Shown in pieces: positions 46,960 through 64,000 of a DNA stretch of 64,000 nucleotides. The notes under the pieces were generated by a model. The model was not told the origin of the DNA. It did not search any database and saw nothing but the letters and a program-made list of their open reading frames with translations. Origin of the DNA: Hyperoplus lanceolatus (Eukaryota; Chordata; Actinopteri; Uranoscopiformes; Ammodytidae); NCBI GenBank assembly GCA_026929865.2, contig CM049405.1, forward strand, positions 17,353,501 through 17,417,500, written 5' to 3'. The position numbers and the translations under genes were made by a program. Each line of letters starts with the position of its first letter. Position 1 is the stretch's first letter.

Positions 46960-47915
46960 GTGTGAATGCTGGAGCTTCCAGCATTCACACTATTGTTATC
47001 CAAATCTTTATTATTAGTGTGAATGCTGGAGCTTCCAGCATTCACACTACTGTTATCCAAATCTTTATTATTAGTGTGAATGCTGGAGCTTCCAGCATTC
47101 ACACTATTGTTATCCAAATCTTTATTAGTGTGAATGCTGGAGCTTCCAGCATTCACACTATTGTTATCCAAATCTTTTTTATTAGTGTGAATGCTGTAGC
47201 ATTCACAGCTTTAATATTCTGCGTATTTATTCTTATTGGTGGGAATGCTGAAAGCATTCACAGCTTTAATATTCTGCGTATTTATTCTTCTTATTATTAT
47301 TATTGGTGTGAATGCTGAAAGCATTCACAGCTTTAATATTCTGCGTATTTATTCTTATTGGTGTGAATGCTGAAAGCATTCACAGCATTGATATTCTACG
47401 TATTTGGTGTGAATGCTGAAAGCATTCACAGCATTGATATTCTACGTATTTGGTGTGAATGCTAAAAGCATTCACAGCTTTGATATTCTGCGTATTTATT
47501 GGTGTGAATGCTGAAAGCATTCACAGCTTTAATATTCTGCGTATTTGGTGTGAAGGCTGAAAGCTTCACACTATTGATATTCTGCGTATTTATTATTGGT
47601 GTGAATGCTGAAAGCATTCACAGCTTTAATATTCTGCGTATTTATTCTTATTATTGGTGTGAATGCTGAAAGCATTCACAGCTTTAATATTCTGCTTATT
47701 TATTGGTGTGAATGCTGAAAGCATTCACAGCTTTAATATTCTGCGTATTTGGTGTGAATGCTGAAAGCATTCACAGCTTTAATATTCTGCGTATTTATTC
47801 TTCTTATTATTGGTGTGAATGCTGAAAGCATTCACAGCATTGATATTCTACGTATTTGGTGTGAATGCTGGAAGCATTCACAGCTTTAATATTCTGCGTA
47901 TTTATTCTTATTATT
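46960..47915. repeat. Tandem array of about 18 hairpin monomers
   Basis: Each monomer of about 45-67 bp has a perfect or near-perfect inverted repeat plus an AT-rich spacer. Copies 1-4 (starting 46960, 47017, 47074, 47128) have 14-bp arms GTGTGAATGCTGGA around GCT. Later copies, from 47239, have 10-bp arms TGTGAATGCT around GAA and a spacer containing CTTTAATATTCTGCGTATTT. Copy 5 at 47185 is a hybrid. Arms stay complementary even where the sequence has changed, for example at 47548. The array leads directly into the 2-kb units. Confidence 0.9.
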
Positions 47916-48960
47916 ATTATTATTTTTATTCCGCCACTTTTTAGGCCTTCAATAACTTCAACATACTTCAACCTTCATACATGTTCAACATATCAATATT
48001 TTCAGCTCTTCAAGGGCTTTCTAGGACCATTTCAACATTTTCAAAAAATTCATAATTTCATATTTATTTTCAACGTTTTATGAAAAATATTCAGATCCCA
48101 GCCACTCATTAATACTATTCCCAATAAACTTCATATACACCTTCAATTGTTCAGCTATTTCAGGACATTAATCTGTATGATTCAGAATTTTTGCTACACT
48201 GCAAAATTTCAAATAAATTCAACTTTATGAATTTTAATATTTCATGCAAAATTATGATCGTTCCTACTCGTCCATACTTCATCGTAGAAACTCGATTTCA
48301 AGCCTTTCCTGTTCGTCTTGCACAGTTACACACTTTCATAATTCAATATTTTTTCATAAAATGTATAACTTCAGAGATATTAAAGGTTTATTAAACATAA
48401 AGTCTCTCCATGCAAATGAATATCCCGAAGAGTTTGGACATGACGCCAAACCTATCTGCTCATTCATACGTCATCCTAGAAACATGATTCTAACATATAA
48501 ATATTCAGCTGACTTCCCCTCTTCATAATCTATGAACAGTTTTTTCAACAAATGTATAGTTTTCTCATGAGACAGCCTTGTTTGAAGGCACGCAAACTCC
48601 AAAATCAAACAGTGAGTGGATGGAGCTACACTCCATGATCGGATGTCAAATGAACTCCATTTTCAACTTGCTGGCCTAACCAAATTGTTTACAATACAGA
48701 CCCAAATGTCACAGTGAATATTAATTGGAATCTCTCATTCTCACGGTACCATCATTTTTCTGTCAGACAAATGGTTTGCGAGATACAGCCATTAGTTCGG
48801 CTTAGCTGCTCTATTTGTCTCTGTCTTAGACAGGGGATTTGGAGACACAAGTGGCTGTACGTGTGTAGATTACCAGTACAGCTGTTACCACTCAGCCCTG
48901 ATTAGCTGTGACCACAGCACCATAGCAATATATAGTTTTCTTGTTATGTTATTGAACACA

Positions 48961-49032
48961 GGTCTGGTGGCTTAGTGGTTTAAGCCCAGGTCTCGTAGTT
49001 CAAAAGGTCTCAGGTTCGATTCCAGCTGAGGG
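48961..49032 (+). promoter_or_regulatory. Pol III A and B boxes, tRNA-like, unit 1
   Basis: TGGCTTAGTGG matches the A-box consensus TGGCNNAGTGG, and GGTTCGATTCC matches the B-box GGTTCGANTCC, about 45 bp apart. A D-arm-like GGCT...AGCC pairing is present. There is no matching acceptor stem, so this is a SINE-like pol III promoter and not a functional tRNA gene. Confidence 0.7.
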
Positions 49033-49108
49033 AATACAATTTTCGAATTCTCAAATGTTTGTGTGAAGGAAGTATGTCTCGTGGTGTAAGTGCATATGGC
49101 ACATTAAG

Positions 49109-49143
49109 CACACACACACACACACACACACATACACACACAC
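49109..49143 (+). repeat. (CA)n tract downstream of the pol III boxes
   Basis: A short CA tract follows the tRNA-like segment by about 80 bp. Counterparts occur in the other pol III-bearing units (about 54963, 57145, 58958, 60750 and 63042), except unit 2, where an A/T-rich stretch and a T-run of about 35 bp (near 51148-51181) take its place. Confidence 0.85.
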
Positions 49144-49366
49144 CAAGTTGCCTTTACTCAGTCAGTTTTCATCCCATAAACTTCATACCACATTCTACAT
49201 GTTCAGCTCCTTCAGGACATTACATGGTAGTATCCAGATTGAGCTGAACACAGGGTTGGGGGTTCCACTTTCCCGCTCCAACACCAAATTTTAGACTTCA
49301 ATTGATTTTCTTAAAATTTTGCACAGATGTTCATTATGACTCAGAGATGACATCACAAGAGTTTAG

Positions 49367-49379
49367 AGGTCAAAGGTCA
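49367..49379 (+). promoter_or_regulatory. DR1 nuclear-receptor-type element, repeated in seven units
   Basis: AGGTCA-A-AGGTCA is a perfect direct repeat with 1-bp spacing (DR1). It is followed within about 20 bp by TCAAGGTCA and by GGTCACTGTGACG, an ERE-like inverted repeat with 3-bp spacing and one mismatch. Identical DR1 copies occur at 53186, 55204, 57413, 59223, 61021 and 63310; unit 2 lacks it. DR1 sites bind RXR, PPAR, HNF4 and COUP-TF class receptors. Binding here is inference. Confidence 0.65.
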
Positions 49380-61375: not shown

Positions 61376-61535
61376 TTGGTGTGAATGCTGAAAGCATTCA
61401 CAGCTTTGATATTCTGCGTATTTATTGGTGTGAATGCTGAAAGCATTCACAGCTTTAATATTCTGCGTATTTATTCTTATTGGTGTGAATGCTGAAAGCA
61501 TTCACAGCTTTAATATTCTGCGTATTTATTCTTAT
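61376..61535. repeat. Three hairpin monomers between units 7 and 8
   Basis: Three copies of the GAA-loop hairpin with its usual spacer link the CTAG-type end of unit 7 to the TTATTCCG start of unit 8. Confidence 0.88.
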
Positions 61536-62633
61536 TATTCCGTACGTTTTATGCTCAATAACTTCAACATACTTCAACCTTCATACATGTTCCACATATC
61601 AATATTTTCAGCTCTTCAAGGGCTTTCTAGGACCATTTCAACATTTTCAAAAAATTCATAATTTCATACTTATTCAACGCTTTATGAAAAATATTCAGAT
61701 CCCAGCCACTCATTAATACTTATTCCCACAAACTTCATATACACCTTCAATTGTTCAGCTATTTCAGGACATTAATCTGTATGATTCAGAATTTTTGCCA
61801 CACTGCAAAATTTCAAATAAATTCAACTTTTATGAATTTTAATATTTCATGCAGAATTATGATCGTTCCTACTCATTCATACTTCATCGTAGAAACTCCA
61901 TTCAAAGTTCTTCCTGTTCGTCTTGCACAGCAGCAGACTTTCATAATTCAATATTTTTTCATAAAATGTATAACTTCAGAGATATTAAAGGTTTATTAAA
62001 CATAAAAGTCTCTCCATGCAAATGAATGGGGAAGGATCCAACCCCTCAAGAGTTTGACATGACGCCAAACGCTTCTCCTCATTCATACTTCATCCTAGAA
62101 ACATGATTCTAACATATAAATATTCAGCTGACTTCCTCTTTCATAATCTTAAACAGTTTTTCAACAAATGTTTAGTTTTCTCATGAGACAGCCTTGTTTG
62201 AAGGCACGCAAACTCAAAATCAAACAGTGAGTGGATGGAGCTACACTCCATGATCGGATGTCAAATGAACTCCATTTTCAACTTGCTGGCCTAACCAAAT
62301 TGTTTACAATACAGACCCAAATGTCACAGTGAATATTAATTGGAATCTTCTCATTCTCACGGTACCATCATTTTTTCTGTCAGACAAACGGTTTGCGAGA
62401 TACAGCCATTAGTTCGGGCTTAGCTGCCCATTTAAAACCTCTGTCTGTGTGACAGGGGATTTGGGGACAAGGGTTGCACGTGTAGATTACCAGTACAGCT
62501 GTTTACACTTGACACTGATTAGCTGTCTGTCACCATGGTGACCATTACAGTGCACTGGCTGTCTTTGACTCAACGATGACATCATAGGCCAATATAGGTC
62601 CAACTCCATAAAGAGAGAGAGTGAGAGTGAGAG

Positions 62634-62780
62634 ACACACACACACACACACACACACACACACACACACACACACACACACACACACACCAGACACACAC
62701 ACACACACACCAGACACACACACACACACACACACACACACACACACACACACACACACACACACACACACACACACACC
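62634..62780 (+). repeat. (CA)n microsatellite, unit 8
   Basis: CA repeats interrupted twice by CCAGA steps, in the same extra segment as in units 3 and 5. Confidence 0.95.
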
Positions 62781-62897
62781 CTCTACATATACCACACAGA
62801 GGTGGAGAGGTAACACAGCTGTTACCAATTGGCCCTGATTAGCTGTGACCACAGCACCATAGCAATATATAGTTCTCTTGTTATGTTATTGAACACA

Positions 62898-62967
62898 GGT
62901 CTGTGGCTTAGTGGTTTAAGCCCAGGTCTCGTAGTTCAAAGGTCTCAGGTTCGACCCAGCTGAGGGA
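62898..62967 (+). promoter_or_regulatory. Pol III boxes, unit 8
   Basis: The A box keeps TGGCTTAGTGG after a 1-2 bp upstream loss. The B box reads GGTTCGACCC, shortened by one base. Confidence 0.55.
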
Positions 62968-64000
62968 ATACAATTTTCACCTCACAAATGTTTGTGTGAA
63001 GGGAAGCATGTCTCGTGGTAAGTGCATATGGGTACATTAAGCACACACACACACACACACACACACACACACACATACACACACAATTCAAGTTGCCTTT
63101 ACCAGTCAGTTTTCATCCGATAAACTTCTATGTCAGCATTTCACATGTTCAGCTCCTTCAGGACATTACATGGTAGTATCCAGATTGAGCTGAACACAGG
63201 GTTGGGGGTTCAATTCCCCGCTCCAACACCAAATTTTAGACTTCACCGGATTTTCTTAAAATTTTGCACAGATGTTGACGGCACCTCAGACATTATCACA
63301 AGAGTTTAGAGGTCAAAGGTCAAATTTCAAGGTCACTGTGACGTTGCCTTTTGTGACTGCATTCTCATGAACGCTTCCACGGTTTTTTTCTTCAAATTTG
63401 CACAAATGTTGATTCTGACTCAACGATGAACTGATAACCTTTTGAGGCTTATACTTCAAGGTCATAATTCATTCCTCAATTCAGCTAGAAAATCCATTCA
63501 AACTTCCAAATATTCCACATTTTTCAAACATTCTATTATTCAACCATTCTGTTGATTCAGATATATATATTTATTTATTTATTTATTTATCCTTCGTTCT
63601 TCATCAACATTCAGCAGTGAAGCTTCAGCATTAGCTTCAGCAGCGTCAGTATTCACACCGCAATTTCTTCAAGGAATTGCATTTCTAGTTATTATTATTA
63701 TTATTCCGTACGTTCTTTTGGCCTTCAATAACTTCAACATACTTCAACCTCATACAACTTCCACATATCAATATTTTCAGCTCTTCAAGGGCTTTCATGG
63801 GCCATTTCAACATTTTCAAAAATTCATAATTTCATATTTATTCAACGTTTTATGAAAAATATTCAGATCCCAGCCACTCATTCATACTTATTCCCACAAA
63901 CTTCATATACACCTTCAATTGTTCAGCTATTTCAGGACATTAATCTGTATGATTCAGAATTTGCTACACTGCAAAATTTCAATAAATTCAACTTTTTATG

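Follow-up and report, generated by a model that had tools for sequence, protein, structure and literature searches.

Whether a tandem array with structured unit ends is a plain local satellite or the remains of a mobile element is the question raised by a locus of Hyperoplus lanceolatus, found in 64,000 nucleotides of contig CM049405.1 (assembly GCA_026929865.2, positions 17,353,501 to 17,417,500 of the forward strand). This whole stretch is called the window here, and coordinates are counted from its first letter. Self-comparison, unit alignment and a listing of the junctions revealed a head-to-tail array at 46954-64000, made of eight complete units of 1.8-2.8 kb and a ninth one cut by the window end (U1 to U9, all on the forward strand), with no intervening DNA between adjoining units. 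This is also the count given in a preliminary description of the locus. The probable ancestor of the array is a rolling-circle transposon, non-autonomous and non-coding, whose ends were of the type known from Helentrons and their associated non-autonomous elements (HINEs); the locus would afterwards have evolved as a satellite. As a whole, the preliminary description is confirmed in part: the array and the end anatomy stand, but its wording on the ends was too strong and that on the leading monomers needs correction.

Part of the evidence for this reading lies at the unit ends. The 3' end consists of the 13-mer CAGCATTCACACC, a 21-bp palindrome and 8 bp ending in CTAG, in this order and with a total of 42 bp (49680-49721 in U1). 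The 13-mer is the exact reverse complement of GGTGTGAATGCTG, with which it forms a 13-bp inverted pair. Allowing up to two mismatches, CAGCATTCACACC is found 62 times in the window (60 times in the array and twice outside) against 2.18 expected, and none of 100 shuffled controls reached this number. The 12-mer GTGTGAATGCTG has 33 exact matches in the window against 0.02 expected, all 33 within the array. Of the features reported in the preliminary description, the inverted 13-mers are confirmed, as are the hairpin at the 3' end and the 5' hairpins in tandem. The 3' end is recognisable in all eight complete units, where CAGCATTCACACC is exact in five (U1, U2, U4, U5, U7), carries a single mismatch in each of U3 and U8 and is disrupted in U6, and CTAG is kept in five (U1, U2, U4, U7, U8) and altered in U3, U5 and U6. 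Four 3' ends were folded as DNA (U1, U4, U5 and U8) and the hairpin forms in three of them: U1 and U4, which are identical in sequence (z -3.04; 4 of 200 shuffles were as good for U1), and U8 (z -3.69). Therefore, the statement that each unit ends with CAGCATTCACACC, a hairpin and CTAG goes too far, U5 being the folded end in which the hairpin is not the best structure.

The next unit follows directly. An exact CTAG/TTATT junction is present in five of the eight cases, and the register is also preserved after U5 and U6, where CTAG is altered. If the array were a plain local satellite, in which a 2-kb unit of unique DNA had spread by unequal crossing over and the palindromes were accidental, it would be left unexplained why CTAG, the 3' palindrome and both inverted 13-mers are located at the unit junctions. 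Other data, given below, suit this explanation better, and it is considered unlikely overall.

At the 5' side, a pattern search found 26 hairpins, 17 in U1, five in U4, one in U5 and three in U8, and one more degenerate copy near 47,547 lies beyond the search pattern. Hairpins are present in four of the nine unit starts and are lacking at the starts of U2, U3, U6, U7 and U9. The cluster of U1 opens with four monomers of 54-57 bp (46954-47183) that carry a near-perfect palindrome, AGTGTGAATGCTGGA...TCCAGCATTCACACT, and their own type of flank; one of them, folded as DNA, gave z -8.92, with none of 200 shuffles as good. They are followed at 47184-47906 by monomers of a second type, GGTGTGAATGCTG-AA-AGCATTCACAGC..., spaced at 46-67 bp except for one 97-bp step, which contains the degenerate copy. 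The first monomer of this second group, at 47,184, appears to be a hybrid between both types. The single 5' hairpin of U5 also folds well (z -5.96). Regarding these data, the earlier statement that the leading monomers begin with the inverse 13-mer needs correction, as the four leading ones begin with AGTGTGAATGCTG instead of GGTGTGAATGCTG and differ in their flank. The view of the 5' hairpin as a tandem satellite in itself agrees with the up to 17 copies in one unit, but only four of the nine starts carry any.

The unit starts also suggest how the hairpin could come and go. U5 and U8 start as CTAG/TTATT-(hairpin)n, followed by TTATT repeats that run into CCG, and the five hairpin-less starts read TT(ATT)4-5-CCG. 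This is the form into which a deletion from TTATT to TTATT would convert a hairpin-bearing start. The leading monomers of U1 belong to another type than the TTATT-(hairpin)n starts of U5 and U8.

This anatomy can be compared with that of known elements, the accounts of which are taken here from excerpts of the papers cited. HINEs are described with subterminal inverted repeats of 12-15 bp, the 5' one being itself a palindrome or preceding a short inverted repeat, with a 3' palindrome at 8-35 bp from the 3' terminus and with a T-rich or TT target that is not duplicated (PMC4067079; PMC7492417). In mite HINEs, the 5' subterminal repeat lies 2-4 nt and the 3' one 38-60 bp from the termini (PMC4067079). 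The array has subterminal inverted repeats of 13 bp, exact at the 3' end in five of eight units, a 5' inverted repeat or palindrome (the 26 hairpins in four of nine starts) and a 3' palindrome placed 8 bp from the CTAG end, which forms in three of the four ends folded. The distance from the 3' repeat to the CTAG end is 42 bp when measured from the start of the 13-mer or 29 bp from its end, and that from CTAG to the 5' repeat in U5 and U8 is 5 nt, or 3 nt if TT is counted as target; both values depend on the measuring convention. CTAG is followed by TT in five of the eight junctions and the left flank of the array runs into TTT, while its right end lies beyond the window. The likeness to HINEs such as DINE-1 and those of mites (PMC4067079) includes the subterminal inverted repeats, both palindromes, the T-rich junctions and the non-coding nature. 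On the other hand, the array differs from them in having units of about 2 kb in tandem, in the amplification of the 5' hairpin module itself and in that no autonomous partner is seen in the window.

The oyster Cg_HINE (PMC7492417), which has satellite-like central repeats, shares the following layout with the array: a 5' subterminal repeat with an inverted repeat, a short microsatellite, inner repeats and a 3' subterminal repeat with a palindrome. In U6, the unit examined for this, degenerate direct repeats with lags of 136, 154 and 205 bp (E 2.5e-11 to 5e-7) can be likened to those central repeats, and U6 gave 11 self-matches at E < 1 against 0-3 in each of 20 Markov controls. However, it is the central repeat that is amplified in the oyster element, whereas in the array it is the 5' hairpin, and whole elements stand in tandem as well. 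The proposal of a HINE layout made in the preliminary description is thus partly supported by the end anatomy, the inner repeats, the T-rich junctions and the lack of a long open reading frame (ORF). The array can be called HINE-like by anatomy and would have become a satellite, its membership in the HINE class being unproven.

Other rolling-circle elements offer further comparisons. Helraiser has been shown by experiment to form circles with joined ends and to use a 3' terminator hairpin before CTAG (PMC4778049). The array resembles Helraiser/Helibat in the CTAG terminus and in a palindrome close upstream of it (19 bp there and 21 bp in the array), but canonical Helitrons start with 5'-TC and have no inverted repeats, whereas the array units start with TTATT and have subterminal inverted repeats. 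A canonical Helitron, with a 5'-TC start and a CTRR end and inserted in AT, was rejected as a candidate: CTAG is present in five of eight units but the start is TTATT. Tandem Helitron arrays have been mentioned for plants and bats (PMC5876387). In many plant arrays of truncated Helitrons, several 5' ends are combined with only one 3' end (Xiong et al. 2016, as described in PMC12628747). Rolling-circle elements lie head-to-tail there as well, and yet the array shows the reverse of many plant arrays (PMC12628747), as each of the eight complete units retains a recognisable 3' end, whereas five of nine starts have no 5' hairpin. In fish, Helentron proteins have been found in many species (PMC4067079) and HduSat17-150 of the catfish Harttia duriventris (PMC11955569) is a Helitron-related satellite. 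The latter has a 150-bp unit, judging from its name, and the excerpt describes no hairpin or whole-element tandem for it; this comparison is by description and not by sequence.

The strong palindromes at the leading edge of the array could also mark the termini of a transposon from another class, of the terminal-inverted-repeat or foldback type. Nevertheless, the outermost bases of the unit (TTATT at the start and CTAG at the end) do not form an inverted repeat, the inverted pieces lie at subterminal positions, and the 5' and 3' palindromes have different sequences, all of which makes this origin very improbable. For the same feature of the outermost bases, which are not inverted copies of each other, a cut-and-paste transposon with terminal inverted repeats was rejected.

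The relations among the units provide further evidence. They were obtained from an alignment that omits the hairpin clusters of U1, U4, U5 and U8 and that took U5 to end at 57763 and U6 to be 57764-59588, one base out of register; identities refer to gap-free columns. U1 (46954-49721, with the 5' cluster of 17 hairpins by pattern and the degenerate one), U4 (53530-55568, with five hairpins), U5 (55569-57762, with one hairpin, a damaged 3' hairpin and the 3' terminus CAAG), U6 (57763-59587, without 5' hairpin, with the 3' terminus TCAG and the inner degenerate repeats), U7 (59588-61372, without 5' hairpin) and U8 (61373-63688, with three hairpins) are similar to each other, with 91.7-95.7% identity in all 15 pairs. 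U9 (63689-64000) is the unit cut by the window end and starts without a hairpin. U3 (51498-53529), a unit without 5' hairpin and with an altered 3' terminus, has 81.6-84.1% identity to the six similar units, a lower value that is due at least in part to a long AC run aligned against other sequence. This (AC)n repeat occupies the place of a tRNA-like stretch that is absent from U3, as if it had been deleted by recombination between two microsatellites. The array also shows a strand bias in composition: the GC skew is negative in all eight 2-kb windows from 48,001 onward, and the excess of C over G persists without the long AC runs (C 3220, G 2376).

U2 (49722-51497, without 5' hairpin) is strongly diverged, with 65.1-73.8% identity to the other eight units, a correction to the preliminary description, which was silent on it. 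Over the last 60 alignment columns, it matches seven other units with 83-96% identity, and this likeness of the ends despite the overall divergence fits elements that share their ends. A plain satellite leaves the same 3' end in so diverged a unit unexplained, unless by conversion. That explanation gains from the blockwise sharing of variants and the incompatible sites among the units: the six similar units have 48 informative sites, and of the 1128 pairs of these sites 623 conflict with a single tree. Such mosaic relations equally fit the satellite phase of the favoured descent. Among the six units, common variants concentrate at a distance of three units, and 4 of 720 label orders do as well, which is only suggestive of a three-unit period.

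U2 also has to be considered if the elements were each inserted into TT beside the end of an older copy, the tandem then arising from target preference. The T-rich junctions are in line with such serial insertion, as is U2, which would be a different subfamily and is yet in register; moreover, a study cited in PMC12628747 traces transposon dimers in Drosophila mainly to a preference for certain insertion sites. A fresh insertion should bring its 5' hairpin, which five of nine starts do not have, and the six similar units are about equally related. Serial insertion is accordingly regarded as quite unlikely.

Several observations weigh against a rolling-circle ancestry followed by a satellite phase. 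CTAG is lost in three of the eight complete units, and U5 prefers another fold over its 3' hairpin (z -1.70). In U4, the first bases are eroded and no TTATT precedes the first hairpin. U2 and U4 have a common variant of the 3' end (97% over the last 100 columns); because of this, the kept 3' end of U2 may reflect conversion, which may account for it as well as constraint does. The signal for a three-unit period is weaker once U3 is included, as 480 of 5040 label orders then score as well. The star-like similarity of the units also arises from homogenisation, and for this reason it gives no support to a rolling-circle burst. Finally, no related copy was found in positions 1-46930 (46.9 kb, E 1e-3, low-complexity filter on), a result that would also suit a plain local satellite, and no solo copy, empty site or autonomous relative is seen within the 64-kb window.

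Other searches for relatives were of little help. Pattern scans of viral and prokaryotic genome contigs gave no matches, nor did blastn of one unit (53798-55568) against plasmids and phages, and these null results say little since the collections are prokaryotic or viral and the window looks eukaryotic. In the literature, the 12-mer gtgtgaatgctg is present in 11 papers, none of which is evidently a repeat study by title and opening abstract, and two other strings had no match. No title or abstract of the mostly open-access literature on Helentrons, HINEs and Helitrons describes such an element, although repeat databases, e.g., Repbase, may already catalogue the family. Similarly, that literature yielded no description of a 5' hairpin amplified in this way, repeat databases being outside its scope.

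Regarding the interior of the units, the preliminary description pointed to RNA polymerase III boxes and nuclear-receptor half-sites. They are indeed present: box A is exact in seven of the eight complete units and box B in four, a perfect AGGTCA-A-AGGTCA occurs in seven of eight, and AGGTCA is found in 2-5 copies per complete unit. However, a function is unsupported. No tRNA was predicted in the window by ARAGORN (bacterial setting) and Rfam gave nothing there at gathering scores; at E up to 10, region 53798-57763 had 11 Rfam matches, none of them to tRNA and all 11 below the gathering score of their own family. The polymerase III-like boxes are therefore only sequence matches, and the repetition of the motifs is no evidence of function because copies of one ancestral unit inherit them together. 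Alignment columns 2184-2223 (40 columns) are invariant in six units, as are other stretches. In U2, columns 1719-1850, part of the tRNA-like stretch, are 91% like the other units, but in the adjoining window, which contains box A, no more than 43 of 71 positions match, and either constraint or chance could be behind this likeness.

Concerning the coding content, no stop-free stretch of Rep/helicase size is present in the array or the rest of the window, and three ORFs of the array matched no Pfam family at E up to 0.01. Elsewhere in the window, remains of a long interspersed nuclear element lie on the minus strand at 22248-28039, with an RVT_1 match (E 2.1e-30) in the ORF at 23573-24223 and long ORFs adjoining on the same strand. 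An exon-like ORF at 38979-39371, also on the minus strand, has a weak match to the phosphorylase superfamily (PNP_UDP_1, E 0.0098, below the curated cut-off), and from its appearance we presume that it might belong to a uridine phosphorylase gene. A perfect (TG)n microsatellite of 56.5 copies is located at 34096-34208.

Under the favoured descent from a HINE-like transposon, a Rep/helicase provided by an autonomous relative would nick the DNA at the end with the 5' hairpin and displace one strand, and replication would normally halt at the 3' hairpin and CTAG. Head-to-tail copies with CTAG/TTATT junctions would result from read-through past this stop or from replication around a circle whose ends are joined. 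In a later satellite phase, unequal exchange or conversion would swap blocks between units, perhaps with a three-unit period, and slippage of replication between the TTATT repeats on either side could add or remove copies of the 5' hairpin. From the anatomy of the units we infer past mobility, the enzyme, a rolling-circle origin of the tandem, the slippage and this order of events. A bolder idea, which we hold to be very doubtful, is that the satellite of 5' hairpins serves as a multiple initiation site, in which the additional hairpins at the leading edge provide Rep with many starts and allow continued amplification; such a self-extending locus would keep its terminators and shed its inner origins, in contrast to the Helitron arrays of plants.

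If the proposed descent is true, this locus would show how a rolling-circle element turns into a satellite in which every complete unit retains its 3' stop region, and how the 5' recognition hairpin gave rise to a satellite of its own. The locus would then offer a natural test of how Helentron tandems originate, by read-through or circles on the one hand or by later unequal exchange on the other.

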